25,658 nucleotides of DNA from a virus. Under the pieces are notes generated by a model. It saw only the letters and a program-made list of their open reading frames with translations. It was not told where the DNA came from and did no database searches. Where the stretch lies: the IMG/VR virus record IMGVR_UViG_3300009120_000006, positions 1 to 25,658 of that record. The stretch is one strand, 5' to 3'. Numbering within the stretch: position 1 is the stretch's first letter; the number at the start of each line of letters is the position of its first letter. Below, piece by piece: positions 2,386-25,658 of this stretch. Made by a program: the position numbers and the translations under genes.

Positions 2386-2406
2386 TCTAATCTCCCCCTA
2401 TTTAAA

Positions 2407-4017
2407 CTATTTCTTCTGTCCAGGTCGTTGTTGTTTATTACTGCCGTTAGTTCGTTGAGCAACACCTGTGTCTTTCAACTCGCCATCTTGTTTCTTTGGT
2501 CTACCTCCAACATTATCTTCGGGGTTAGTTTTGTCGGCACTATCAGATATAGTGAAGGATGTTGGATGCGGCAGGTATTTTTCATCGAATTTCATTGATT
2601 TTTCGTAATCAAGCAACTTTAAATATGTATTAGAGTCGCCCGAACCAGTAGCGTATAGGTATAATCTTGACCCTCCTGCCAGAGTATAGAGGTCTTTGGC
2701 ATTATTAAACGCTTGTTCCCGATTAAGGATGGATGTTCTTAAATACTTAAATTCAACCCATTCGTCTTCAGGGATCTCAAGAAAATTGTTAATTACCTTG
2801 GTAAATTGCCACTCTATCTGCTCTAACATCTGGAATACTTCTGCTAACATTAGGTCTAAGTTGACTGCCAACGAACTATAACTAGCTCCCTCGCCAGTGC
2901 CATTTAATGCGGCAAGAGCAAGCCCCAAGTCTGTGCTTACAGACTTTAAGTTCTCTTCTGTTAATGTATCCTTCAAAAAAGTACTATCGTTCTCCAACTT
3001 GCCAACTTCAGTACCAGGAGCAAGAACAAGAGTTGTTGTTTGCGATATACGCCTGTTGCCACGTTGCACTGTATTAGTGACCGCACTCTTAAAGTTATCG
3101 TACTGATTCTTTTGCTGATCCTTGTTTAAGGAACATTGTCCCTGCTTTTCGCCTTGTGGTTGTTTGAGCCAACGAATTGTGCCAGAGTTTTCATATAAAT
3201 TACCACGCTGGCTATCTGTATAACTTTCAGCAAACAAAATATCGTTCAAAGCAGATAATCCCAATGGCCTCCCATAAGGTTCATCAATCTGTGAACGATA
3301 TTTATATGCAAATGTTGTTTTTTGGTCTAAGATATACCATCGTTTTTTAGCATCTTTGCGGTATTCATTGTATGCTTTTACAAAATCTACTGGATAGTTT
3401 TTTATTTCTGCAACAAGTCCGTTGTTTTTAAATTGGTCGAAATACATCATATCGAATGCACATACATAATCGCCGTTCATAAAACCGATAAATTTTACAT
3501 AGTCCCTATCCAGTGGCTGGAGCATGGAGTTTGTGTCGATAGCCAGCCCTTCGATTTTGTCTAAGCTATCAACAAATGTAGTGTCTATCTGAGATGTTTT
3601 CTTTTTCGTGTCTCTAAGTATGGCAACGTACATCCCCTCTAAGAGTGCAGCAAGTAATACATCGCGAGTGCTAAGTTTGTGATTCATCTTTCGTGTCAGG
3701 AAGTAGTCGGCCCGTTTAGCACGTTTTTGGGATTTTTTACCGCTGTCAAACGGAATTACTATATGGTCTAGGGTGGGGGATGCCACCATCTTATCTACAG
3801 TTCGTGCATATAAACCATTCAAGTTATACATTCGCTTTGATACACCGCGAATCTGCTTATTGTAGAGCATGGGATGTTGTATATATGTTTTAATATGCTC
3901 CTCAGAAATATCACCAAAAGATAGCATGTCGCTACCAAAGCCGAAGGTGCTAAACATTGTGCTGTTGATTTCTACTGGGTGGGATGTTTGTTCTATGTTT
4001 TGAGTTGTAGTGTCCAC
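2407..4017 (-). CDS. Phage portal protein
   Basis: The 536-aa product starts with GTG six bases after AAAGGAGG. It follows the large terminase by 18 bases and is of normal portal length. Portal-like traits are the segment EPYGRPLGLSALNDILFAES near residues 246-265 (the stem/crown junction usually carries a PYG.s.L pattern), the Gly/Ser-rich NGTGEGASYSSLAVN around 372-386, a following long amphipathic helix (387-415), and a disordered Lys/Gln/Pro tail with GGRPKKQDG that is typical of portal C-termini. It would form the dodecameric DNA channel of the capsid and dock the terminase. I assign it by these patterns and position, not by a database match. Confidence 0.85.
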   Translation of the reverse strand: MDTTTQNIEQTSHPVEINSTMFSTFGFGSDMLSFGDISEEHIKTYIQHPMLYNKQIRGVSKRMYNLNGLYARTVDKMVASPTLDHIVIPFDSGKKSQKRAKRADYFLTRKMNHKLSTRDVLLAALLEGMYVAILRDTKKKTSQIDTTFVDSLDKIEGLAIDTNSMLQPLDRDYVKFIGFMNGDYVCAFDMMYFDQFKNNGLVAEIKNYPVDFVKAYNEYRKDAKKRWYILDQKTTFAYKYRSQIDEPYGRPLGLSALNDILFAESYTDSQRGNLYENSGTIRWLKQPQGEKQGQCSLNKDQQKNQYDNFKSAVTNTVQRGNRRISQTTTLVLAPGTEVGKLENDSTFLKDTLTEENLKSVSTDLGLALAALNGTGEGASYSSLAVNLDLMLAEVFQMLEQIEWQFTKVINNFLEIPEDEWVEFKYLRTSILNREQAFNNAKDLYTLAGGSRLYLYATGSGDSNTYLKLLDYEKSMKFDEKYLPHPTSFTISDSADKTNPEDNVGGRPKKQDGELKDTGVAQRTNGSNKQQRPGQKK

Positions 4018-4035
4018 ATTTAACCTCCTTTCTAT

Positions 4036-5688
4036 TTAGGAGTGGGTGAATACGAAGTCGTAGTCATCATCAGATTCTTGTCCTTCAAGAAACTGAGCAA
4101 TATAAAAAAGAGCATATACCAAAGCAGAGTATCTATCTTTATCTACTCGCTTTACTACTTGCTCCACTGTTACAGATGCGCTATTTTGTGTTTTCTTAAG
4201 TTTTAGATTCGCCACCTCGTCTATCAAAACTTGTGTTTGAACACATATGGTCTCCACCGCTTCTTCATCTACACCCTTTGGGATATTCTCTTTTATCTCA
4301 TCAAACGAGCGCACAAGTTTCAATTTGTTAGATTCAACGAAGTTAATAAACGTCCTTATGATATCTCCGTTTATACCCTGAGACTTTAAAACATATACAA
4401 ATGGGGGCGCGTCTTTGACTTTGGGCTTATCTTCCGTGTTGATAGTAGCGAAGCAACCCAATTCTTGATTAGTTTCATAGTCAGTTACATCCTCTAAAAG
4501 TTTTTCCACCAATCCCTGGCCTATTGTATTTCCGTCCACGACAATAGCCTTGACTCTTGATTTACTAACATCTAAATCTCCGCCATACTGATAAAAGACT
4601 CTTTTTACTACAATAGATTGTTCTTCATAATTCAGTCCATTGGGCGGAGTAATAATGTTTACTACATGAACCTGACGAATGACACCTGCTTGGTTTCTGA
4701 TGATCTTAAGAACTACGATGGCAGTTTTATTATTGTTTTCAGTGTTACTTCTTGCGACATCTACACCTATTACGTACTCAACCATTTCGTTGTGTCCACG
4801 CTTGTCTTTGGGACATTCTAATTCCGGCGATGGTAAACTCCTTGCCTTGATTAGCTTGGATATATTAATCAAACCGCCGTCACTCACGCCCACCCAATCA
4901 CAAAGATAATTCTGCCTAAAACGGATAATATTGGTTTTTCTTGCTTTGTCTATAACTGATTTCTTCTGTCTGCCAAAATGAACTGGTATAAACCAGTCCG
5001 AACCAAAAACAAATCCTCCGCGCAAATCCACCATATCACGAAGAATACTGATTATTTTTTCATACTCATCACTATTCTTATAGCCAGATGTACTATACCG
5101 ATTTATTTGCGAGTTTAATTCTTGAGGATCAATTTCTCCGCTCATCGTTGTTCTTGGAATGTTAAAAATTGGTTCTATACAATCATCGTAGGTGTCTTTG
5201 TCAATTAAGGCAGATTCTTCCAATCCGCCTCTGCGCCTTCTGAGACCTTTGCTTTGCGGACTATTAGCTAAGTTATCAATTACGCTTCCCGAAATAAATT
5301 CCACACGCCCTTGATCTTTAGAGAAATTAGCCGTGCGTATGTTTTCTGCAAAAGATGGATAGAATCGAAGAATTTCATCATGTTTATCTTTCCAAATTTT
5401 AACCGCACTCTCTTTTGTAGATGCTGTAATAGAGGTGGTTATGTTCGGAAAGCAACATGCAGTATGATATTGATTCATAATGTGGAGCAATGTTTTAGAA
5501 ATACCACGAGGAGCACAAAAATAATTTTCTGGAAATCTAGAAAGTAATCGAATCATCACCCTTTGATGTAAATCAAAGGTTAATCCGCCTGTTTCAGGCT
5601 TATACAAATCCCAGAAGATATCCGGCATCCAACGCAGAAAAGAGCATAATTCTGCAAATTCTTTTATATGTCTAGTGATCGTTCTCAT
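4036..5688 (-). CDS. terL: Terminase large subunit (DNA-packaging ATPase/nuclease)
   Basis: With ATG at 5688 the product is 550 aa. The open frame continues 41 codons further, but that part only duplicates the end of the preceding gene in another frame, so I use the start that overlaps it by 17 bases. The ATPase domain has a Walker A variant APRGISKT (59-66), a Walker B-like stretch GGLEESA (154-160) with tandem Glu, and a following STSGYK motif (199-204) that fits the coupling motif. The nuclease domain has the three acidic positions of the RNase H fold: IGVDVARS (D310), IVVDGNTIG (D385) and VDKDRYSAL (D516/D518). It would cut concatemers and drive DNA into the prohead through the portal encoded next door. 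Confidence 0.93.
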   Translation of the reverse strand: MRTITRHIKEFAELCSFLRWMPDIFWDLYKPETGGLTFDLHQRVMIRLLSRFPENYFCAPRGISKTLLHIMNQYHTACCFPNITTSITASTKESAVKIWKDKHDEILRFYPSFAENIRTANFSKDQGRVEFISGSVIDNLANSPQSKGLRRRRGGLEESALIDKDTYDDCIEPIFNIPRTTMSGEIDPQELNSQINRYSTSGYKNSDEYEKIISILRDMVDLRGGFVFGSDWFIPVHFGRQKKSVIDKARKTNIIRFRQNYLCDWVGVSDGGLINISKLIKARSLPSPELECPKDKRGHNEMVEYVIGVDVARSNTENNNKTAIVVLKIIRNQAGVIRQVHVVNIITPPNGLNYEEQSIVVKRVFYQYGGDLDVSKSRVKAIVVDGNTIGQGLVEKLLEDVTDYETNQELGCFATINTEDKPKVKDAPPFVYVLKSQGINGDIIRTFINFVESNKLKLVRSFDEIKENIPKGVDEEAVETICVQTQVLIDEVANLKLKKTQNSASVTVEQVVKRVDKDRYSALVYALFYIAQFLEGQESDDDYDFVFTHS

Positions 5689-6712
5689 AAATAGGCTCTT
5701 TATATACTTCTCCCAGATCGCGAAAAACATTATTGCGTTTGATTTTTTCTTTTTCGACCATATCTGGAGCATACCCCTGTTGAGTGAAATATTCCGTAAG
5801 CATATCATCATAAAACCGCCATATGTCCTTATAAGCGATCCTGGGCTTATCTTCTAATCTTCTGGCGTAATTTATAATACACCATATAATTAAATCGGCA
5901 TCATCATACGGCTGTTCTTTTAGCTTTGGTAAAATCGGAATTATTCCAACCTCGGTCTCTACCGCCTCAAATAACTGAGGGAGTAAATCTACACCTCCAC
6001 TTATGTCTGACTTCGACAACTGCGAAACATTAATCTTTGCTGCCGTTGCTGCATCTTTAGCCATAGTTGCCCAATCTTTTGCTTCTTTAACCAGGCCGTT
6101 TGCTGTAGCCAATTCTTCTTTAACCCTAAATCTTATATAAGTTATTAAGCCCTCAATATGGAATGATGTTTTTTCTCCATAATTGTTTATCAGCTTATTC
6201 CACTTTTTCTCGAAATAATAATATTCTTGGTCAGTATACCCCACTCCCCACTTATCAATTATCTTGTCTGTTACTACAAACGTGTCTATACTATCCAACG
6301 ATGATTGCGGTGTCTCTGAACGGGTAGTTTCTATGTCGCCTTCATCAAATTGTGTATCAAAAACAGAATCGGCCCAACCCATACTTCTATACTGCTTCAT
6401 TGCTATATTTTTCATATATGTACCAAACGCATCTCGATTGCTCATAGATGTAGAAGTATTCCATATGTCTAGAATGAATGGTCTATCCAATAGTTGTAGC
6501 GTTTTCTTCAGCTTTACTAAATCAACGTTGCCACGTTCGTCCGTTATCATCTTTTTCAGACATGGTTTACAATACGGAAGACATCCCGTTTGATGAACTG
6601 GATTAAAACTCTTATAAAACTGAGATGAATCACGTTCCTTACCACATGCAGCACACGACACCCCTGGAAGGGGAATCTTTGGTTTGTTACTGTTTGAGCT
6701 AATCCGATGCAA
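5672..6712 (-). CDS. Zinc-finger protein before TerL, terminase small subunit candidate
   Basis: The 346-aa product starts with TTG at 6712, inside the last codons of the homing endonuclease gene (14-base overlap), and its best Shine-Dalgarno (GGAGG, 12 bases upstream) is also inside that gene. Residues 20-51 hold four cysteines spaced C-x2-C-x24-C-x2-C. The middle (100-180) is acidic and aromatic, residues 185-230 form an Ala/Lys-rich helix, and the end is helical and charged. Position directly before and overlapping terL argues for the DNA-recognition subunit of the terminase. It is longer than classical small subunits (about 150-200 aa), and I see no clear HTH, so the role is contextual. 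Confidence 0.6.
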   Translation of the reverse strand: MHRISSNSNKPKIPLPGVSCAACGKERDSSQFYKSFNPVHQTGCLPYCKPCLKKMITDERGNVDLVKLKKTLQLLDRPFILDIWNTSTSMSNRDAFGTYMKNIAMKQYRSMGWADSVFDTQFDEGDIETTRSETPQSSLDSIDTFVVTDKIIDKWGVGYTDQEYYYFEKKWNKLINNYGEKTSFHIEGLITYIRFRVKEELATANGLVKEAKDWATMAKDAATAAKINVSQLSKSDISGGVDLLPQLFEAVETEVGIIPILPKLKEQPYDDADLIIWCIINYARRLEDKPRIAYKDIWRFYDDMLTEYFTQQGYAPDMVEKEKIKRNNVFRDLGEVYKEPIYENDH

Positions 6713-7613
6713 TCAACTCTTCTCCCTCCACAAATCTCCATTTAAAACCACCCGCAGTATTTTGAATTCCACAACATACGGAATGAATATTCCATATACC
6801 AGTCTCTTTGCGCGCCTTCTGTGAACTTTCCCACCGCCGTATGACATTGCCATTAAGGTCACACTGATATACTGGCCTTTTATTTAGTTTCACCGTATTA
6901 TGAACAAATGTTCCACTATAGTAATCGGATTTACGCACCCACACATACCCTTTATAACTTTGAATATGTCCATTAAGACATCTATTTATATTACATGCCT
7001 TATAACCAATTTGTCTTTGCACTTCATGTGCACTCAACCATTCCGAGACAAATGAGCCATTGGGGGCAAGTTGAACTATCTCTATATTGTTAATCCTTTT
7101 TAATTTATCTTTTGTTTCTTCGGATGTTTTTCTACCCAAAGCATTTCCAGCAGTGGGATTTAAATTATAACCCTTAGTCTTATCGCAAACGCCAAGGTTA
7201 TTTATCCAATGCTGTTCTCTTTTAACTAGCATCTTTTTATCAGGAATAAATTCTAGAACTATAAACTTAAAAGCATCTTCGCCATGTTTATTGTAAGCAT
7301 TTTGTAAATATACGTTTTCGTGATTGTTATTTCGTAGCATACTCATATGTGCACACCATCTAGTAAAAATGTCTTTTGCACTACCCACATAAGATTTATT
7401 AGATTTGCAGTTTCTGATTTCATATACGCCGTGCTTTTTATAAATATCTTCCCAAAAATAATCAAAAGTTTGTTTCTTAGAAAAGAATTCCGTACCACAA
7501 TCACATTTCTTACATGCACTTCTGAACCCATTTTTCCTCGATTTATCCATAAAGAAATAATCAGATGTAAGCGGATATTCGTTGCCACATTTGCTACACT
7601 TCTTTGAATTCAT
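6699..7613 (-). CDS. GIY-YIG homing endonuclease with NUMOD repeats
   Basis: The 304-aa product has four parts. Residues 6-37 form a zinc finger C-x2-C-x24-C-x2-C. Residues 60-145 are a GIY-YIG nuclease with GVYEI (62-66), SYVGSAKD (74-81), the catalytic Arg of FTRWCAH (R85) and the catalytic Glu of KREQHWI (E133). Residues 152-175 carry a NUMOD3-type helix (GRKTSEETKDKLKR). Two NUMOD1-like DNA-binding repeats follow (177-228 and 246-295), each with the pattern G-x-hydrophobic ... W-x-S ... I-x-x-C ... G-x-x-W. This is the I-TevI/I-BmoI type of free-standing selfish endonuclease. It is inserted between a structural gene and the terminase genes, and the terminase reading now starts inside its 3' end. 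Confidence 0.93.
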   Translation of the reverse strand: MNSKKCSKCGNEYPLTSDYFFMDKSRKNGFRSACKKCDCGTEFFSKKQTFDYFWEDIYKKHGVYEIRNCKSNKSYVGSAKDIFTRWCAHMSMLRNNNHENVYLQNAYNKHGEDAFKFIVLEFIPDKKMLVKREQHWINNLGVCDKTKGYNLNPTAGNALGRKTSEETKDKLKRINNIEIVQLAPNGSFVSEWLSAHEVQRQIGYKACNINRCLNGHIQSYKGYVWVRKSDYYSGTFVHNTVKLNKRPVYQCDLNGNVIRRWESSQKARKETGIWNIHSVCCGIQNTAGGFKWRFVEGEELIASD

Positions 7614-8480: not shown

Positions 8481-8893
8481 GTGTAACCTCCAAATTTTAA
8501 TCCAGTCGGCGTAAAGCCAAATTTAAACGAGCAGGGCTTACGCTTTTCAGCAGCCTGCTCTCAATCAAACTGGAAATTTTTTAGTCGCCACCAGTAGGCG
8601 ACAAACATTTCTCAGGCCGGACATTTATTAGTCGCTGCCGGTACGCGACATTGATACACACTAGGCAGGGCGACGATCCTGCATTTCCCATCTATCCCAT
8701 CATGTACTCATGTACTGTGTTAGACAGTGGGCGAAGCTGCCAGTTCTACTTCTAGTGTGACTTTAACAATGAGCATGGACTTATTGGCAACGCCATGCTC
8801 GCACTTACAAGTCGCAGTTATGGCCGCGAAACGCCATCGCAAAGATAATCTCGCCACATTAGATTTGACTCCACATGAGTCATGGTATGTGGC
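8481..8893 (-). ncRNA. Candidate large structured RNA (413 bases without a gene)
   Basis: This block has no open frame but is packed with nested perfect inverted repeats. From right to left these are AATCTCGC/GCGAGATT (8847-8854 with 8897-8904) enclosing CACAT/ATGTG (8855-8859 with 8887-8891) and GACTC/GAGTC (8867-8871 with 8877-8881); ATGGC/GCCAT (8820-8824, 8833-8837); GAGCATGG/CCATGCTC (8771-8778, 8793-8800); ACTGT/ACAGT (8714-8718, 8724-8728); GCAGG/CCTGC (8665-8669, 8678-8682); GTCGC/GCGAC (8631-8635, 8645-8649); GTCGCC/GGCGAC (8584-8589, 8597-8602); and TCCAGT/ACTGGA (8501-8506, 8569-8574) enclosing GGC/GCC and GAGCAGG/CCTGCTC (8529-8535, 8554-8560). Both neighbours are leftward, so I assume leftward transcription. 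Phages are known to carry large ornate RNAs (GOLLD, ROOL); I cannot match it to either. Confidence 0.5.
8581..8650. repeat. Two related hairpins with a shared loop pattern
   Basis: TTAGTCGCCACCAGTAGGCG and TTAGTCGCTGCCGGTACGCG each continue with ACA and share the plan GTCGC-N-NCCNGTA-N-GCGAC. They stand 47 bases apart inside the candidate RNA. A weaker third relative (GTCGC ... GCGA) is at 8811-8829. Confidence 0.7.
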
Positions 8894-12482: not shown

Positions 12483-13526
12483 ATGCGTACAGCAGAGAAT
12501 GTTGTGCTATTACACCAAGAAACAATTTATGAGTTGATTGATACTTACCTCGGCAAATTAACACCACTTACATGCAGGGCTTATAAGAAGGATATTGAAT
12601 CATTCTTTAGGTATCTAAGAAACAAAGATTTACAGCAACTTACTCGCGAAGACATTAAAGTGACCAATGCAGAAGTAACATCTTATCAAACACATCTTCG
12701 CAAGCTCTACAACAACCTAACTGTCAACCGCAAACTCGCTGGAGTAAAGGGGCTTTACAAATTCTTCTCTGCAAACATTGGTGGCAGCGACTTTCAGACC
12801 AAAGACGGCATCGACCTTCTTCGCGCAGTCAAAGTTGACTACCTTAAAAAAGCAAAGGCCAATAGTTACGGTATTCTAGCCTATGACGAGTACTTACGCA
12901 TACTTGATGCACTAAAATCACAGCATAAAGCAGAAGAAAAGAGTCTTTTTATGCAGGTTGGATATTTCACCAGCTACCGTATTACTGCATTACGCAATCT
13001 TACATGGGAATGCTTTGAACCAGATGGAGACGGCAATTACTATGTAAAAACAATAGACAAAGGTGACAAAGAAACTGACAATGGTATTCCTGGTTGGTTG
13101 TATAATAAACTGCGGGACACATTGTACAATGAGCATGATCCCAAGGGTGAAAAACAAAGAGTGTTCATGCTTGAAGCCAAGACTATTAATAAAGCACTCA
13201 AAAAGGCTTGTGATGATGTGGGCATTAACCACAAAAAGCGCAATATTGTGTTTCACTCCATTAAGAAGCTTGGTGTCAATGAGACTTACGAGCGCACAGG
13301 CGACATTTATGTAGCATCACAACAGGGGCAACACAACAATGTCGATACCACTGCTCAGGTCTATGTCAAAAAAAAGCGCAAACTTGGTGACATGCCACTA
13401 ATTCGCACAGACCAGCCTATAGACACATCTGCGTTGCACACCATGACTAGAGATGAGTTGATTGCGCTGATTGAGAGTGCGGATAACTATACTAAGAGTA
13501 GGCTTTTGAAGGGATTGGGAAAATAA
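12483..13526 (+). CDS. Tyrosine recombinase/integrase family protein
   Basis: The 347-aa product starts with ATG after AAGGGAGG. Residues 15-98 are a SAM-like core-binding domain (TYLGKLTPLTCRAYKKDIES). The catalytic domain shows Arg I in TSYRITALRNL (R166), the beta-hairpin Lys in TIDKGDKE (about K193), H258 in VFHSIKKLG, H284 in GQHNNVD and the nucleophile Y294 in AQVYV. The second catalytic Arg (HxxR) is replaced by Lys (K261), which is unusual. A 50-residue C-terminal tail follows. It is transcribed alone between a consensus promoter and a terminator, so it could serve integration, dimer resolution or copy control of a plasmid form. No att core is recognisable beside it. Confidence 0.88.
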   Translation: MRTAENVVLLHQETIYELIDTYLGKLTPLTCRAYKKDIESFFRYLRNKDLQQLTREDIKVTNAEVTSYQTHLRKLYNNLTVNRKLAGVKGLYKFFSANIGGSDFQTKDGIDLLRAVKVDYLKKAKANSYGILAYDEYLRILDALKSQHKAEEKSLFMQVGYFTSYRITALRNLTWECFEPDGDGNYYVKTIDKGDKETDNGIPGWLYNKLRDTLYNEHDPKGEKQRVFMLEAKTINKALKKACDDVGINHKKRNIVFHSIKKLGVNETYERTGDIYVASQQGQHNNVDTTAQVYVKKKRKLGDMPLIRTDQPIDTSALHTMTRDELIALIESADNYTKSRLLKGLGK

Positions 13527-20367: not shown

Positions 20368-20442
20368 GGACAAGGATAGCTTGTCCTTAAAGAAGGTAAA
20401 AAGAAGCTGCTGACCAGGAGTGGGATCAGCAGTTTTTGTTTT
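20368..20442 (+). ncRNA. Possible short RNA: inverted repeat followed by terminator
   Basis: GGACAAG (20368-20374) and CTTGTCC (20380-20386) form a hairpin with a GATAG loop; CTGCTGA (20407-20413) and TCAGCAG (20426-20432) form a second one followed by TTTTTGTTTT. The terminator points rightward, yet no rightward gene lies upstream, so a small transcript is implied. I find no clear promoter. CTTGTCCTTA from this hairpin recurs at 19636 and 20497. Confidence 0.4.
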
Positions 20443-20523
20443 GGGTATGGAGTTGGTGGAAATGGGTTGTCATTAGTTGTTGAGGTGCATTTTAGACTTG
20501 TCCTTACTACAGCAGGTGTATAC

Positions 20524-20559
20524 GCTCCTGTGCTTCGCACTAGAAGCATATGCGGGAGC
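20524..20559. repeat. Nested hairpin
   Basis: GCTCC (20524-20528) pairs with GGAGC (20555-20559), and inside GCTTC (20532-20536) pairs with GAAGC (20543-20547). Purpose unknown. Confidence 0.55.
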
Positions 20560-20579
20560 AAGGGGAAATAATGCATGTC

Positions 20580-21035
20580 TGGGCAGGTAGGGGATGTACT
20601 TATTTTTGATTTTACGTGAGTGAGTGTAAGGGAATGGGGTTTGGGGCTAATATGTGGGATAAATTATTGGCGAAAAGATGAAAAATGGATTGAATTGGTC
20701 GAAAGAATGACGAATAAAGGGTAAAAATGAGGAAATGATAAGGGATTCGGGAAGAGGTAGGTGGGGTAAGGGTTTGGGGCATGAAAATAGGATGAATATG
20801 ATGATTTTGAGTGAAAATGAGTGAGAGTGAAGGTGGCAAAGAGTGTTGATACTGCTGGGTTTTGTCGAAGGGCTGTCGAAGAGAAAATCGAAAGGGGAAG
20901 GGAGATTTATGGAGTGCGATTTCAAATAATGGAATGTAAATGGAAAGTATAGGAATTAACTAGGAAAATAATATGGGTGTGGGAATAGATGTGCTAGGGG
21001 CAGATTTGGTGAAACCTGGCTATAATTTAATGTAA
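20580..21035. other. C-poor, G-rich strand-asymmetric stretch
   Basis: On the plus strand 20641-20940 I count 104 G and 15 C. The asymmetry ends abruptly near 21035, where C-rich DNA (CCTACCCCCACTAGG) begins. No credible gene is present; the minus-strand open frames are by-products of the low complexity. Confidence 0.7.
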
Positions 21036-21170
21036 ACCTACCCCCACTAGGCCAATAACTAGTAGTATCAAGTCCTTTTGCCTACCTTAGAATATACGTT
21101 ATCAGGTAGGTGATAGCTTTGGGCATGGTTAGAGGCTGTCGAGCGTGAATTGTAGTAATCATTTACCATG

Positions 21171-21224
21171 CTAATTAGATAGTGGTCTAATTCATATGGA
21201 TTAGGTGATAGTCTAATTAGATAG
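21171..21224. repeat. Direct repeats CTAATTAGATAG
   Basis: CTAATTAGATAG occurs at 21171-21182 and 21213-21224, 42 bases apart (four helical turns), with a shorter GTCTAATT between them at 21185. Confidence 0.75.
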
Positions 21225-21264
21225 CTGTCGAATAGTAACAGCGCACTACTCAGGACTGAGATAC

Positions 21265-21413
21265 TACTACACACTGTAGTATATAACCATGTTATTAATT
21301 GCAACATACACTTACTACTATATGTAGTAATCTACTGCACCATGTAGTACAACTACCGGCCACTATGTTCCACATGAAACAATTGTATTATACAACTACT
21401 ACAGATCATAGTA
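21265..21413. repeat. Cluster of TACTACA-N3-TGTAGTA palindromes
   Basis: Four 17-base sites share a 7-3-7 palindromic plan: TACTACACACTGTAGTA (21265-21281, perfect), TACTACTATATGTAGTA (21313-21329, one mismatch), TACTGCACCATGTAGTA (21333-21349, one mismatch) and TACTACAGATCATAGTA (21397-21413, two mismatches). They look like operators or centromere sites for a dimeric DNA-binding protein. Confidence 0.75.
21366..21381. promoter_or_regulatory. parS-like site
   Basis: TGTTCCACATGAAACA differs from the bacterial ParB/Spo0J site TGTTNCACGTGAAACA at one position (CACATG for CACGTG). It lies inside the palindrome cluster. Confidence 0.55.
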
Positions 21414-21482
21414 ACATGGCACTTTATACATGCTTCCTGCATTACTACCGTCAATGACTTGTTTAAATATTGCGCGATAATT

Positions 21483-21499
21483 GTTTCATTATATGAAAC
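21483..21499. repeat. Palindrome GTTTCAT-TAT-ATGAAAC
   Basis: A perfect 7-3-7 palindrome whose arms (TGTTTCA/TGAAAC) are those of the parS-like site 102 bases to the left, but with a longer centre. Confidence 0.7.
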
Positions 21500-21592
21500 G
21501 TGGCTGGAATTCATTAACCACATTACATATACCGTTCTGCCCCCTACCCTTGTTATGCGCCATAAAAAATTATCCGGCAAAGGTAAAAACCA

Positions 21593-21620
21593 TTGTATTA
21601 ACGCTAGTTTTTGATATAAT
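21593..21620 (+). promoter_or_regulatory. Promoter of the rightward small-gene module
   Basis: TTGTAT (21593-21598), 16 bases and a perfect TATAAT (21615-21620) stand 36 bases before the first start codon, which has AAGGAG. Confidence 0.75.
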
Positions 21621-21656
21621 AGTATTAGGAAGTTAGATATAAGGAGTGTGTGAGTA

Positions 21657-21875
21657 ATGACAAGGTTAACCGCAATATACAGAACATCTCGCAACGGCAA
21701 TCTAAAGAGTATGAGTACTAACGACATGACCAAAGGCGAACTTGTTAAGCAATTACGCGCCAATGGTTTTAGAGTACTAGTGGTACTTACTGACAGCGAG
21801 ATAGAGGCCACCAAGAGTCTAAAGGCTTATGAGTTAGACACCGAATGGAAAGAATACGCTAACCAAGTACTATAA
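21657..21875 (+). CDS. Small protein of unknown function, first gene of the rightward module
   Basis: The 72-aa product starts with ATG after AAGGAGTGTGTGAGTA. It begins MTRLTAIYRTSRNGNLKSM, has a basic first half and an acidic second half ending EWKEYANQVL, and contains a strand-like FRVLVVLTDSE (38-48). It is directly behind the module promoter, so it should be the most strongly expressed. Three hairpins follow its stop. No family is recognised. Confidence 0.75.
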   Translation: MTRLTAIYRTSRNGNLKSMSTNDMTKGELVKQLRANGFRVLVVLTDSEIEATKSLKAYELDTEWKEYANQVL

Positions 21876-21877
21876 AG

Positions 21878-21941
21878 AAGGAGCCTAACTCCTTCCCTCC
21901 TGCCCACTAGCTTAGTGGGTAGCAGAGAGGTAGTTACCTCT
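21878..21941 (+). repeat. Three consecutive hairpins after the first small gene
   Basis: AAGGAG/CTCCTT (21878-21894), CCCACTA/TAGTGGG (21903-21919) and AGAGGTA/TACCTCT (21926-21941) have stems of 6, 7 and 7 bp and loops of 5, 3 and 2 bases. None has a T-run, so they are not ordinary terminators; processing or stability elements are possible. Confidence 0.75.
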
Positions 21942-21967
21942 AATAACACTTTAAGGAGGCCAACCAT

Positions 21968-22480
21968 ATGAAAGAACTCCGCCTAAAGTTTCTGCAGGAT
22001 CAGTTCTCCGGCACTATCACCTCTAAGAATGGTAAATACCTTGTGACATTCCCCAACTCCTCTAATGTCTATACTTACTCCTGTAACCTTCAGGAGTTAG
22101 CCCAAAAACTCCGCATAGATGTTTCTGATCTCCTAGACTCCGGCAATACTTACAACACGGGCACAAAAGCTGCTAAGCATATGCACCAGGCTAGACAACG
22201 TAATCAATTCTCCTTAGAGGATATAATGCAGGAGAATAAACCTGCTAAGGTTGCAGCCCTCCGCGAGTTTTATAATCACTGTTCCCAGGCTACTAGTGGA
22301 GAATATACCCTTTATGCAGAGATTAATCTTACCTCCGGCGATATCGCTTTTCACACTATAGCAGGCTCCCAAAATGATGTTCCGGCGGGCAAGGGAGAAC
22401 GCAAAACGCTTTATATCTCCTGTTTGCCTAGTGGAATACAGTGGGCAGCGGAAACAGTAGAAAAGTATACTAACCGTTAA
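21968..22480 (+). CDS. Unknown protein, 170 aa
   Basis: ATG at 21968 follows AAGGAGG by eight bases. The product begins MKELRLKFLQDQFSG; residues 18-45 look like a beta-rich segment (YLVTFPNSSNVYTYSC), 46-62 a helix, 65-100 a basic, polar linker, and 105-165 a second alpha/beta part with YTLYAEINLTSGDIAFH and LYISCLPSGIQWAAETV. No membrane segment or metal motif is seen. It lies between two hairpin-bearing gaps. The layout resembles phage host-takeover proteins, but that is context only. Confidence 0.75.
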   Translation: MKELRLKFLQDQFSGTITSKNGKYLVTFPNSSNVYTYSCNLQELAQKLRIDVSDLLDSGNTYNTGTKAAKHMHQARQRNQFSLEDIMQENKPAKVAALREFYNHCSQATSGEYTLYAEINLTSGDIAFHTIAGSQNDVPAGKGERKTLYISCLPSGIQWAAETVEKYTNR

Positions 22481-22482
22481 CA

Positions 22483-22537
22483 GCTAGGCTCTCTAGCCTA
22501 GCCCTTCCCCTAAATACACTACCAATAGTGTGTTTAG
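22483..22537 (+). repeat. Two hairpins, one with a U.G pair
   Basis: GCTAGGCT/AGCCTAGC (22483-22502) has 8 bp. CTAAATACACTA/TAGTGTGTTTAG (22510-22537) has 12 bp with one T.G pair that is allowed only in rightward RNA, so the fold is likely an RNA element of the module transcript. Confidence 0.75.
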
Positions 22538-22552
22538 TGGTGGGACTAGTAA

Positions 22553-22575
22553 ACCCTATAACAGCCCTAGGACAA
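22553..22575 (+). repeat. Leader repeat, copy 1 (ACCCTATAACA ... CCTAGGACAA)
   Basis: A 23-base sequence that recurs at 23326-23348 with one difference. Both copies stand just before the ribosome site of the next gene. A 13-base part also occurs inside a gene at 23489. Confidence 0.8.
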
Positions 22576-22601
22576 ACTATAAACAATAAGGAGGTCATAT
22601 A

Positions 22602-22736
22602 ATGTCACTAGAACAATTCAAAGCCCTTTACGAAGTCAACAGTCAAAACTTTCTCGCCGATAAGATCACCCGTCAAGAATGGGCAAAACGTCGCAGGGAA
22701 CTACTAGACTTATTTATGAAGTCTAACAGCAAATAG
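22602..22736 (+). CDS. Unknown small helical protein, 44 aa
   Basis: ATG at 22602 follows AAGGAGG by seven bases and 44 codons run to TAG. The product begins MSLEQFKALYEVNSQNFLAD and continues with a basic helix (RQEWAKRRRELLDLFMK), giving a helix-turn-helix-like two-helix shape. The length is below common gene-calling cut-offs, but the ribosome site, spacing and flanking hairpins are those of its neighbours. The stop codon is part of the next hairpin. No family is recognised. Confidence 0.7.
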   Translation: MSLEQFKALYEVNSQNFLADKITRQEWAKRRRELLDLFMKSNSK

Positions 22737-22782
22737 CAGGATTAACTCCTGCTAAATATGTCCTAGTCATTAGGGCATGTTT
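22735..22782 (+). repeat. Two hairpins, one with two U.G pairs
   Basis: AGCAGGA/TCCTGCT (22735-22753) has 7 bp. AAATATGTCCTA/TAGGGCATGTTT (22754-22782) has 12 bp including two T.G pairs, again possible only in rightward RNA. The helices are adjacent and could stack. Confidence 0.75.
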
Positions 22783-22818
22783 AGGAGTAGTTATCCAATA
22801 ACAAGGAGGTATATAACA

Positions 22819-23298
22819 ATGTCTAAGTCTAAAATTCAGGTATCAGTTACCCGCACTATCTATGGTAAAAAGTCCGGCTTTGTTGCTACTCTTGGTGAGT
22901 ATTCTGAATTCGGCAAAACTAAGGAGCAGGCTATAGCTAACTTACAGCAGGCTATAGAATGGCATAATGCAGACTTCTCACCTGTTACAATGTCATCCTC
23001 TTTACTCGGTACTTATACCCTTACTAAGACTTACCACGGGTACGAGATCACCCATAACAGCACCAAGTGTACAACTGTGCTTGGTAGGGTAGCTCTAGAA
23101 AAGGCCCTAGAATCCTTAAAGGCTCATGTATCAATAGTGTGTCCAAAGTGCTACACACAGACCACAGACCCCATAACAGTACACGCAGAAGAGATTCGCG
23201 CAGCATATCCTACCCTTCACATATGCCCTTCTTGTGCTAGTGGCGAAGTCAATTTCCAGGGTATCCGCTATTCTGTGGACAAGGAGTGTGCTAACTAA
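22819..23298 (+). CDS. HicB-like domain with zinc ribbon, unknown role
   Basis: The start is ATG at 22819 after AAGGAGG; an in-frame extension upstream runs through a hairpin and is excluded. The 159-aa product opens with a strand-strand-helix part, SGFVATLGEYSEFGKTKEQA then IANLQQAIEW, with the pattern of HicB-type antitoxin folds. It ends with two cysteine pairs, CPKC (about 107) and CPSC (about 134), forming a zinc ribbon. No HicA partner is adjacent, so an antitoxin role is not supported; a small RNA- or DNA-binding regulator is plausible. Confidence 0.7.
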   Translation: MSKSKIQVSVTRTIYGKKSGFVATLGEYSEFGKTKEQAIANLQQAIEWHNADFSPVTMSSSLLGTYTLTKTYHGYEITHNSTKCTTVLGRVALEKALESLKAHVSIVCPKCYTQTTDPITVHAEEIRAAYPTLHICPSCASGEVNFQGIRYSVDKECAN

Positions 23299-23325
23299 AA
23301 CCTGGTTTTTGCTATAACACCCCGT

Positions 23326-23348
23326 ACCCTATAACAACCCTAGGACAA
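23326..23348 (+). repeat. Leader repeat, copy 2
   Basis: 22 of 23 bases equal the copy at 22553-22575; the difference is A for G after ATAACA. It precedes the next start codon by 29 bases. Confidence 0.8.
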
Positions 23349-23377
23349 CCCATAACAATAATAAAGGAGTGTATACA

Positions 23378-23698
23378 ATGGAAAGAACTATTAAAGCCCC
23401 ATTCAGCCTATACTTAGGTAAACAGTGGTCAAAATCCGGCACGGACGACAATAAAAAAACATGGTTAAAAACTAACTTGAAGCCCATAATAACAGCCCTA
23501 GTTAATGAGATCAGCCCATTAATACAGTCTGATAGCACTATAACAGCAGACTATTGCAAGGTAACAGAAGACTTATACCTTCGCTTACAATGGACTGAAC
23601 AAAGCAATATACACTATTGGCAACACGAAATAACAGCAGACCTTAACCGAATTCTTGATCACTTGCTCATTAATCGTAATATTGTAGCTTGTTACTAG
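23378..23698 (+). CDS. Unknown protein, 106 aa
   Basis: ATG at 23378 follows AAAGGAG by eight bases; a GTG nine bases upstream overlaps the ribosome site and is rejected. The product begins MERTIKAPFSLYLGKQWSKS and is helical with many Thr, Gln and Asn. The gene contains several copies of ATAACAGC. The leader AAAGGAGTGTATACAATGG is identical over 19 bases to that of the next gene, pointing to duplication of the leader or shared control. No family is recognised. Confidence 0.75.
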   Translation: MERTIKAPFSLYLGKQWSKSGTDDNKKTWLKTNLKPIITALVNEISPLIQSDSTITADYCKVTEDLYLRLQWTEQSNIHYWQHEITADLNRILDHLLINRNIVACY

Positions 23699-23760
23699 TT
23701 AAAAGCTATCTTTTCTTGTACAACGACACGACAAAAAAATTTATTAAAGGAGTGTATACA

Positions 23761-24204
23761 ATGGCAAGACGCACAAAGGAGCAGTTAGCAGAAGTAAAGG
23801 CAACAGCTAGGCATTACCTCTATATGACCAATAATGACGCACAAAAGGCATGGAATGAGCATATAAAGGCCCATTTACTCACGGGTAAGCCATTTACAAT
23901 TCCATGCACATTAAAAGACTTCGTGCAAGAATCCGAAGTCATAGCACGTGAACAGACTGAGAAAGAAGCATACCTTCTACAATGTGAGAAAGAGCGCGAA
24001 TCCGCAAAAGCTGTTGAAACTGATGAGCAATTCATGTCTAGACTTCTAACCCTATCAAAAGAAGCTATAACAACAGCTTGGAATCAATACAAGACAACTT
24101 CCTATAAAGATGCAGTCTTAGAGTTATACATGGCACATGGAGCGCAAGACGCGCAAGGTATACGCTGGCAGACAGTAAGTCAGTTAAGGCAAATATTCGC
24201 ATAA
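23761..24204 (+). CDS. Unknown helical protein, 147 aa
   Basis: ATG at 23761 follows AAAGGAGTGTATACA. The product begins MARRTKEQLAEVKATARHYL and is almost wholly helical, with a Glu/Lys-rich middle (REQTEKEAYLLQCEKERESA, about 63-82) that could be a short coiled coil and an end with IRWQTVSQLRQIFA. One cysteine pair is absent, and no membrane segment is seen. The upstream in-frame 24 codons have no ribosome site. It shares its leader with the gene before it. No family is recognised. Confidence 0.75.
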   Translation: MARRTKEQLAEVKATARHYLYMTNNDAQKAWNEHIKAHLLTGKPFTIPCTLKDFVQESEVIAREQTEKEAYLLQCEKERESAKAVETDEQFMSRLLTLSKEAITTAWNQYKTTSYKDAVLELYMAHGAQDAQGIRWQTVSQLRQIFA

Positions 24205-24213
24205 CTCTATAAC

Positions 24214-24275
24214 AGTCGCTTGAGCGACTATAAACAGCCCCTTAAGCTCAAGGCGGGGAAGGGTTACACCTTCCC
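24214..24275 (+). repeat. Two hairpins in the 24.2 kb gap
   Basis: AGTCGCT/AGCGACT (24214-24229) has a 7-bp stem with a two-base loop; GGGAAGG/CCTTCCC (24256-24275) has 7 bp and a six-base loop. The gap (24205-24340) also holds four ATAACA copies. Confidence 0.75.
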
Positions 24276-24340
24276 ATAGGGAACCATAAAAGCACTCTAT
24301 AACAGCCTAACAATTACCTATAACAAAGGAGGTCTATAAC

Positions 24341-24640
24341 ATGATTATCGAAAAGCATACCCTAACCCGCGCATTACGTGATTCTTACTCTGAGGACTGG
24401 GAAGGACTAAAAACCCTTTACTCTGCTCCTGTTCTCCACGTGACCCGCGAAAAGTTACACGATAGACTACAAACAGCTATAGCGCAGCGTAATTGGTTAG
24501 TAGCAGACAACACAGAAGACAGCATTAGACAAGTGGAAATAGCCCTTCAAAAATTGGGCTGGAACTTCACAAAACCCCACAGCATAACAATTCGCAACGC
24601 AGGGCACACAATACCCCAGCCCATAGGGTTTTACCTATGA
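24341..24640 (+). CDS. Unknown protein, 99 aa
   Basis: ATG at 24341 follows AAAGGAGG by eight bases. The product begins MIIEKHTLTRALRDSYSEDW, is helical up to about residue 75 (LQTAIAQRNWLVADNTEDS) and ends with a strand-like part KPHSITIRNAGHTIPQPIG. Its TGA overlaps the ATG of the next small frame (ATGA), so two tiny membrane peptides are translated after it. No family is recognised. Confidence 0.75.
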   Translation: MIIEKHTLTRALRDSYSEDWEGLKTLYSAPVLHVTREKLHDRLQTAIAQRNWLVADNTEDSIRQVEIALQKLGWNFTKPHSITIRNAGHTIPQPIGFYL

Positions 24641-24726
24641 GTTACCCCATTTCATGCCTAGCCTTTATTGTTGTATTACTCCTCTCAGTATCAGCCTTTG
24701 CAGCCTGGGAAAGTAGACAAGTCTAA
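24637..24726 (+). CDS. 29-aa hydrophobic peptide, coupled
   Basis: The ATG lies in an ATGA overlap with the previous stop, and there is no ribosome site of its own, so it depends on coupling. The product begins MSYPISCLAFIVVLLLSVSA and ends FAAWESRQV: one membrane helix or a signal-peptide-like segment with a short polar end. It ends in TAATG with the next frame. Confidence 0.5.
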   Translation: MSYPISCLAFIVVLLLSVSAFAAWESRQV

Positions 24727-24788
24727 TGTTTTACCTGTGTTTAGTCTTTGTTGTATCTACCCTAGTGACTATCTGTTTAAGCCTATAA
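24726..24788 (+). CDS. 20-aa hydrophobic peptide, coupled
   Basis: The frame begins at the last base of the previous stop (TAATG) and encodes 20 residues, MFYLCLVFVVSTLVTICLSL, a bare membrane helix. Its TAA is inside the ATAACAGCC element before the next gene. Two tiny membrane frames linked by one- and four-base overlaps are unlikely by chance, but expression is unproven. Confidence 0.4.
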   Translation: MFYLCLVFVVSTLVTICLSL

Positions 24789-24819
24789 CAGCCGGAAACA
24801 AATAAAGGAGGTCTAACCC

Positions 24820-25071
24820 ATGAAAAAACTAATAGCCAAAACCATAACAGGCAAGGAGTTTGCACACTCTAAAACTCACGCATTTTTTGCAAGTGGGGAA
24901 CATGCCCAAGTAATAGCCAATGTATTCAACAAGCAGAACTATAACCTCAGTCAAGGCGAACACTGGCACGTGTATGACCACGACATCACACAGGACTATT
25001 ATGTCCGGCAGCGAATCGCTGTAAGTAAGGGAAAAGTCAAAGTAACAGCAATAACACCACGCAGTATATAA
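24820..25071 (+). CDS. Unknown basic protein, 83 aa
   Basis: ATG at 24820 follows AAAGGAGG by nine bases. The product begins MKKLIAKTITGKEFAHSKTH, has an aromatic and His-rich middle (GEHWHVYDHDITQDYYVRQR, about 47-66) and a strand-like end (KGKVKVTAITPRSI). Overall charge is basic, which fits nucleic-acid binding. Single transcription with its neighbours is likely because gaps are under 50 bases. No family is recognised. Confidence 0.75.
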   Translation: MKKLIAKTITGKEFAHSKTHAFFASGEHAQVIANVFNKQNYNLSQGEHWHVYDHDITQDYYVRQRIAVSKGKVKVTAITPRSI

Positions 25072-25116
25072 CAGCCCTCAAAATGCAGGTTTTCTCGTAT
25101 GAAAGGAGTGTGAGCA

Positions 25117-25326
25117 ATGGCACAAGTTTACCGGTATCGTGGGGAATTGATCTGCAAGCATAGCGAACAGCCTGGTTGGTATACTACTCTGAATAATGAC
25201 CATAACATCTATAAGACTGCGGATGACTGCCGCAGGGCAATTGACAGCCGTTTAGGTGGATGGACTGGGAAAAATCCGGTCAAACGATGGAGTAATAAAC
25301 CTATACAGGTAATTGGTCAATTTTAG
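25117..25326 (+). CDS. Unknown basic protein, 69 aa
   Basis: ATG at 25117 follows AAAGGAGTGTGAGCA. The product begins MAQVYRYRGELICKHSEQPG and is rich in Tyr, Trp and Arg, with a helix NIYKTADDCRRAIDSRL (30-46) and a Trp/Lys-rich tail. Its size and fold pattern (strand pair, helix, tail) resemble other small phage early proteins. No family is recognised. Confidence 0.72.
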   Translation: MAQVYRYRGELICKHSEQPGWYTTLNNDHNIYKTADDCRRAIDSRLGGWTGKNPVKRWSNKPIQVIGQF

Positions 25327-25355
25327 GCTGATAACAGCCGGAAAGAGGTAACAAA

Positions 25356-25613
25356 ATGAATAAAGCCTATGTGATTGCTGTAGCTGATGGCAGCGAGTTT
25401 TACATCCCCAATGCTTTGCACGTTGAAAGAAATGACGAATTAATGCAGGTTGCAACTGATGAGGAAGCAAGTATCATAGCAGAGTCTGAAGGTATAAAAC
25501 TAATATACGACCTTGAAGGTGTTCCTGATGGTGTTTATATAGACACTGAGGAAAACAGGCGGATTATAGCGGATATGCTGAAACTATACCCAGAGTATAG
25601 CCGATCCAAGTAA
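25356..25613 (+). CDS. Unknown acidic protein, 85 aa
   Basis: ATG at 25356 follows AAAGAGG by eight bases, a weaker site than its neighbours have. The product begins MNKAYVIAVADGSEFYIPNA and is strongly acidic (EEASIIAESEG, DLEGVPDG, DTEENRR), in contrast to the basic gene before it. Acidic small early proteins often act as DNA mimics or protein inhibitors; that is only a suggestion. No family is recognised. Confidence 0.72.
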   Translation: MNKAYVIAVADGSEFYIPNALHVERNDELMQVATDEEASIIAESEGIKLIYDLEGVPDGVYIDTEENRRIIADMLKLYPEYSRSK

Positions 25614-25635
25614 GCGAATAAAAGGAGGTCTACCC

Positions 25636-25658
25636 ATGGAGAAAATTCACTGGTCAAA
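25636..25658 (+). CDS. Start of a further small-module gene (cut by window edge)
   Basis: AAAGGAGGTCTACCC and ATG at 25636 begin a frame reading MEKIHWS before the window ends. The leader matches the GGAGGTCTA type used at 24341 and 24820. Confidence 0.7.

Follow-up and report, generated by a model that had tools for sequence, protein, structure and literature searches.

The rightward train of tiny genes at the end of a 25.7-kb phage record (IMG/VR virus record IMGVR_UViG_3300009120_000006, positions 1–25,658, one strand; herein the window, which means the whole 25,658-nt stretch) raises the question of what the strong hairpins in several of its intergenic gaps do to the transcript that runs through them. 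A first interpretation made from the letters alone (herein the sequence-only reading) had described at least 12 small rightward genes of 20–170 codons, none of them recognizable, and strong hairpins without T-runs in gaps at 21.88, 22.48, 22.73, and 24.21 kb, which it took to be selected RNA structures and perhaps processing sites. The train indeed comprises 12 complete small open reading frames (ORFs; 20–170 codons) and a truncated 13th at 25636, and none of their proteins has a significant Pfam, PHROG, or PADLOC family. The four gaps do fold strongly, and a terminator scan found no terminator-like site on their + strand. We find that the 24.21-kb gap, after ORF 6, is well supported as a pistol self-cleaving ribozyme, and that the three gaps after ORFs 1, 2, and 3 (herein gaps 1, 2, and 3) hold hairpins that look like paralogues, their pairing kept amid sequence change; the idea of selected, perhaps processed, RNA structures is thereby supported.

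The Pistol Ribozyme after ORF 6

The assignment is based on both a covariance model and the pairing of individual elements. Rfam family RF02679 (Weinberg 2015) matches 24214–24281 with 49.2 bits (gathering cut-off 34.5; E 4e-7), and in the predicted structure P1 (4/4 pairs), the pseudoknot (6/6 pairs), and P3 are all formed. The conserved core blocks AUAAA.A, UUA.GC, and GCG are likewise present, in a pattern common to 120 stretches of viral contigs. Other phage pistols were collected by a core-pattern scan of IMG/VR and then compared by structure (83, plus the window copy). The outer pseudoknot pair of the window copy is C-G, a state seen in none of the other 83, where T-A (51) and A-T (21) prevail; this compensatory change argues for a working structure. 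The junction between P3 and P2, which holds the cut site, is 2 nt long, and in pistols this length is fixed while the two nucleotides vary (Harris 2015, PMC4604425). Phage pistols begin a median of 3 nt past the stop codon of the upstream ORF (up to 85 IMG/VR loci, measured with a simple ORF caller), and the window copy begins 9 nt past it.

Gene trains with self-cleaving RNAs in their gaps are already known, and the window is a member of this kind with one ribozyme. Hammerhead clusters around prophage genes were described in 2011, with cleavage shown and the proposal that they cut phage transcripts into single-gene mRNAs (PMC3088659). Phage pistols in IMG/VR often occupy successive gaps: among the viral contigs that we scanned, Rfam places several in a single train at five loci (four in L257, three in L204, and two each in L165, L171, and L212), and other gaps of the L257 train hold three hammerhead-type structures, one of which is reported by Rfam (E 0.00035, slightly under the gathering score). 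A hammerhead scan returned five cases in the pistol-bearing loci (0.79 Mb) and none in the others (1.6 Mb); a scan for the hammerhead core found none in the window. Together, the four pistols and three hammerheads of contig L257 make seven self-cleaving ribozymes in successive gaps of one small-gene train at 2399–5010, and the palindrome GTTTAAAC occurs in a hairpin loop of six of the seven, possibly reflecting a loop–loop contact or a shared origin.

Paralogous Hairpins in Gaps 1 to 3

Comparison of the hairpin pairs by hand (a MAFFT alignment of the three is not structural) reveals one architecture in gaps 1, 2, and 3. The terminal stem of each long hairpin comprises 10–14 bp, starts CU/AG, and finishes CUA/UAG; outward of it follow a 1x1 mismatch, exactly two pairs, a second 1x1 mismatch, three or four pairs, a mismatch or bulge, and four or five outer pairs. 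The three hairpins differ in which nucleotides make up the mismatches and most of the pairs, and pairing is retained, as would be expected of paralogues that have undergone compensatory change. Some sequence is shared as well, namely the outer arm between gaps 1 and 3, and CUAAAUA...GUUUAG between gaps 2 and 3.

A strict scan for this architecture matched the three gaps and one stretch upstream of the train (21171–21220) and nothing on the minus strand. It drew a blank in 400 dinucleotide shuffles of the region and in 2.5 Mb of DNA from other phages, and a looser version gave ten weak matches in 4.7 Mb; the scanner was designed after the structures had been seen, so that these counts overstate significance, although the margin over zero is still large. 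Gaps 1–3 have no Rfam match, and no ribozyme family appears up to E 10 within 21100–22830. The known self-cleaving classes were accordingly rejected for these gaps, given the missing covariance-model match and a negative hammerhead core scan.

Several G.U pairs favor the rightward RNA over its complement, clearly in gap 3 and the upstream hairpin, slightly in gap 2, and not in gap 1. The predicted energies are -28.1 kcal/mol for the rightward RNA versus -16.7 for the complement in gap 3, about -24.4 versus -22.0 in gap 2, and -24.5 versus -25.0 in gap 1, which shows no strand preference. The sequence-only reading had claimed two 12-bp stems whose only irregular pairs were T.G on the plus strand; one U.G does lie in the 12-bp stem at 22.5 kb, and there are two in the stem at 22.75 kb, which is however 14 bp long rather than 12, and all of these pair in the rightward RNA alone. 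They bear on the notion that a mobile or replication-linked DNA element (a cruciform or iteron) was copied to these sites and that its RNA form is incidental, to which the similar hairpin in the repeat-rich region upstream of the promoter (21171–21220) would lend some color; because U.G pairs improve three of the four hairpins on the transcribed strand (with the gradation just given) and three hairpins sit exactly in coding-strand gaps, we regard it as the least probable of the readings.

Proposed Cutting at the Gaps and Its Rivals

We consider it somewhat probable that the train is an early operon of tiny genes and that cuts in its gaps divide the transcript into shorter mRNAs. Self-cleavage of the pistol, predicted between A24276 and U24277, would part ORFs 1–6 from ORF 7 and those that follow it; the upstream product would end in a 2',3'-cyclic phosphate and the downstream product would start with a 5'-OH. 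Gaps 1–3 carry one paralogous hairpin element in an equivalent slot, past the stop codon and ahead of the ribosome site of the following ORF. Their long stems, which span about two helical turns and have single mismatches at fixed positions with varied identity, may be cut by the host RNase III or a relative, and such cuts would do the same job as the ribozyme in the fourth gap. The 21, 21, and 24 pairs of gaps 1–3 reach the stem length of RNase III substrates (about 20 bp or more), with the qualification that in gaps 1 and 2 another fold competes at lower energy, and RNase III cutting appears the likeliest of several readings of these gaps.

A number of observations weigh against this account. 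The gaps that start at 23299, 23699, 24789, 25072, and 25327 show no strong structure on folding. In the pistol, the junction reads A-U, a form that 8 of the 83 others share, whereas the commonest form is G-U, and P2 has three C-G pairs with a C.A mismatch at the innermost position, where the pair is missing in 7 of 84 phage pistols, the window copy included; because of the A-U junction and this mismatch, cleavage could be slow. No relative of the train was found in viral contigs with ORF 2, ORF 4, or the replication protein as query, nor in phages and plasmids by tblastn or blastn. Lastly, gaps 1 and 2 are predicted to fold at minimum energy into a stop-codon hairpin (P0) followed by a shortened stem (-33.4 and -34.0 kcal/mol, respectively), the long hairpin reaching about -25; gap 3, by contrast, prefers the long form (-29.6 versus -22.6 kcal/mol).

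The competition between the two folds may itself be meaningful. When the first 8–10 nt past the stop codon are blocked in silico (6–10 nt in gap 1), the long form is predicted in gaps 1 and 2, although blocking 12 nt undoes the switch in gap 1. That translation sets the fold of these two gaps is offered as a hypothesis only: speculatively, the stop-codon hairpin would exclude the long stem until a terminating ribosome covers its 5' arm and frees that stem, making cutting dependent on translation. A bolder version holds that the gap hairpins are a new two-state intergenic RNA element (stop-codon hairpin versus long mismatched stem) in which finishing translation sets the cut before the next gene, with a ribozyme in the fourth slot and ATAACA, a repeated motif taken up below, serving to flag the operon to an RNA-binding factor of the phage; this we find decidedly doubtful.

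The rival that fares best is that the hairpins are uncut insulators, which protect the 3' ends of upstream messages or set the translation of the next gene. Strong stems between a stop codon and a ribosome site would suit that role, as would the full-gap fold of gap 1, in which CCUCC can pair with the AAGGAGG ribosome site. Such pairing is, however, not a feature of all three gaps (the ribosome site of gap 3 stays largely free), and the fourth gap holds a processing element, so that insulation is possible but on the unlikely side.

A second rival is raised by the hexamer ATAACA, which the sequence-only reading missed. The coding strand of the train has 24 copies and the opposite strand none, while 1000 shuffles average 2.8 and never exceed 9; the first 21 kb of the window have 7 copies on both strands summed, near background. 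Of the 24, 14 lie in gaps, including two that run into a start or stop codon, and 10 lie in ORFs, where synonymous-codon shuffles average 3.3 and reach 10 in 1 of 2000, and the flanks favor C at -2 and GC downstream. This one-stranded array makes ATAACA a better candidate for regulator sites than the hairpins, for which the same role, also suggested in the sequence-only reading, has evidence pointing neither way. The motif may form a stoperator-like array or an RNA element that a phage factor recognizes. As an unpaired-RNA signal, the motif was rejected: it is predicted to be unpaired at 0.80, versus 0.74 for hexamers of equal composition. Patterns of the motif plus a ribosome site occur in viral contigs at background only.

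The gaps and the 24 copies together might then be sites of one phage regulator, acting in antitermination on the nascent transcript or, stoperator-like, on the DNA during elongation. Besides the strand bias and a count far above that of shuffles, this reading can point to the stoperators of mycobacteriophage L5, which are likewise oriented with transcription and located in short gaps (PMC9283540). The ATAACA copies nevertheless lie outside the hairpin stems and so would explain the motif and not the stems, they are no more often unpaired than comparable hexamers, no regulator gene was identified, and their number and placement are unlike those of SPBRE, the 15-bp promoter element of SPbeta, which has about ten sites (PMC10516654). 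We therefore hold a common regulator to be unlikely. The SPBRE/MrpR system was itself considered for ATAACA and rejected on copy number and placement (PMC10516654). Separately, the window encodes a tyrosine-recombinase-like protein at 12483–13526 (+), with HSIK in place of HxxR and no close solved relative, which is possibly a recombinase-fold regulator like MrpR.

The hairpins could also be a new class of self-cleaving ribozyme in the pistol's slots, much as hammerheads and pistols alternate in L257: they share the position of the pistol, differing ribozyme classes can share one train, and the hairpins have no Rfam match. Their would-be active-site mismatches vary (C.C, C.U, and G.G; C.A, U.U, and C.U), though, and none of the unpaired nucleotides beyond the helix ends is conserved, which renders this reading highly improbable.

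The Train, Its Surroundings, and Known Systems

The features are collected in table 1. In the window the structural genes run leftward, and tyrosine-recombinase-like, actin-like partition, and replication-like genes are also present; the replication-like gene is followed by ~2 kb that hold one leftward gene and no other convincing gene, and then by the train. Since the closest portal match is to SPbeta-like phages (35%) and the large ATPase is closest to that of Alicyclobacillus phage MMB025 (37%), the host is probably a Firmicute. The sequence-only reading was too generous in giving every gene a near-perfect ribosome site and the train one consensus promoter. A site of AAGGAG/AGGAGG type, or near it, precedes 10 of the 12 ORFs, the exceptions being those at 24637 and 24726, which overlap the preceding stop codon (ATGA and TAATG) and likely encode coupled membrane peptides (24637–24788). 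The extended -10 TGATATAAT is present, with TATAAT at 21615–21620, whereas the candidate -35 (TTGTAT, 21593–21598) is weak, which is why a consensus scan does not list the promoter. Before the train, 21000–21600 is rich in repeats and palindromes (GTAGTA-type repeats; CTAATTAGATAG twice) and is possibly an origin or control region, and 20430–20990, between the leftward gene and the train, lacks a convincing gene and has an extreme strand skew, with 34% G and 7% C on the + strand.

Table 1. Coordinates of predicted features in the window.
Feature	Position	Strand	Remarks
Skipping-rope RNA	8657–8759	-	RF02924, 39.2 bits
Fourth hairpin of gap-hairpin architecture	21171–21220	+	A+T-rich, upstream of promoter; five G.U pairs in + orientation
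Probable promoter	21593–21620	+	TTGTAT, 16 nt, extended -10 TGATATAAT; read from sequence
ORF 1	21657–21875	+	72 aa
Gap 1 P0 hairpin	21877–21895	+	7 bp, directly past stop codon; excludes outer part of long hairpin
Gap 1 long imperfect hairpin	21886–21936	+	21 bp: 5, mismatch, 4, mismatch, 2, mismatch, 10
ATAACA copies (24)	21943–25336 (span)	+	Extended form C[TCA]ATAACA[GA]C
ORF 2	21968–22480	+	170 aa
Gap 2 P0 hairpin	22483–22502	+	8 bp, past stop codon
Gap 2 long imperfect hairpin	22498–22549	+	21 bp: 4, mismatch, 3, mismatch, 2, mismatch, 12; one U.G in terminal stem
ORF 3	22602–22736	+	44 aa
Gap 3 P0 hairpin	22737–22751	+	Weak alternative, 5 bp, at stop codon
Gap 3 long imperfect hairpin	22739–22796	+	24 bp: 4, bulge, 4, mismatch, 2, mismatch, 14; two U.G
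ORF 4	22819–23298	+	159 aa; two CxxC pairs (zinc-ribbon-like)
ORF 5	23378–23698	+	106 aa
ORF 6	23761–24204	+	147 aa
Pistol self-cleaving ribozyme	24214–24281	+	RF02679; predicted cut between A24276 and U24277
ORF 7	24341–24640	+	99 aa
ORF 8	24637–24726	+	29 aa, hydrophobic; overlaps ORF 7 stop; without ribosome site
ORF 9	24726–24788	+	20 aa, hydrophobic; TAATG overlap; without ribosome site
ORF 10	24820–25071	+	83 aa
ORF 11	25117–25326	+	69 aa
ORF 12	25356–25613	+	85 aa
Truncated ORF	starts 25636	+	13th of the train

Searches of genome contigs with other genes of the window found no relatives, and a scan of viral contigs with the ATPase gave one match only, a 105-kb contig like phage MMB025. 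MMB025 has a series of small genes after its replication gene, but no pistol and no shared motif; it also has a skipping-rope RNA, near its sigma-factor gene. Single-sequence structure models of ORFs 2 and 4 (mean pLDDT 53 and 35) were too poor and were not used. Next to the terminase region, the ORF at 6699–7613 (-) looks, when read by eye, like a GIY-YIG homing endonuclease.

The SPO1 host-takeover module consists of many small, uncharacterized early genes, and the sequence-only reading had likened the train to it and suggested host or defense inhibitors among the products. The likeness reduces to many small genes lying together: no homologous protein was found in the phage, plasmid, or viral collections, no family match was obtained, and only a single weak promoter is evident for the train.

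Parallels also exist for the individual elements. With RF02679, the stretch at 24214–24281 shares P1, the pseudoknot, P3, the 2-nt junction, the conserved blocks, and the position just past a stop codon, differing in its A-U cut site, the innermost C.A of P2, and the outer C-G of the pseudoknot. As with the clustered prophage hammerheads (PMC3088659), consecutive gaps of a phage operon are occupied by several RNA elements; unlike those clusters, the window combines one pistol with three hairpins that do not resemble ribozymes. ATAACA resembles the L5 stoperators (PMC9283540) as a short asymmetric site oriented with transcription, and both these and the SPBRE of SPbeta (PMC10516654) as a site in many copies in one phage. 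It differs from both in that the 24 copies crowd into 3.4 kb of a single operon, with 10 lying within genes, and from stoperators in not being genome-wide in this fragment (the 7 copies of the first 21 kb, in a record from which most of the genome is absent) and in that no cognate repressor was found.

RNase III sites of T7 and SP82 early mRNA are imperfect stems of about two turns in the gaps of early operons. The gap hairpins share that form and setting and differ in that their mismatches are single and regularly placed. The pistol is hence of a known kind, and the gap hairpins and the ATAACA repeat match nothing known. To the question of why phages have self-cleaving ribozymes, this locus adds that a ribozyme and an unrelated hairpin family in equivalent slots suggest selection for the slot itself, namely a cut between a stop codon and the next ribosome site.

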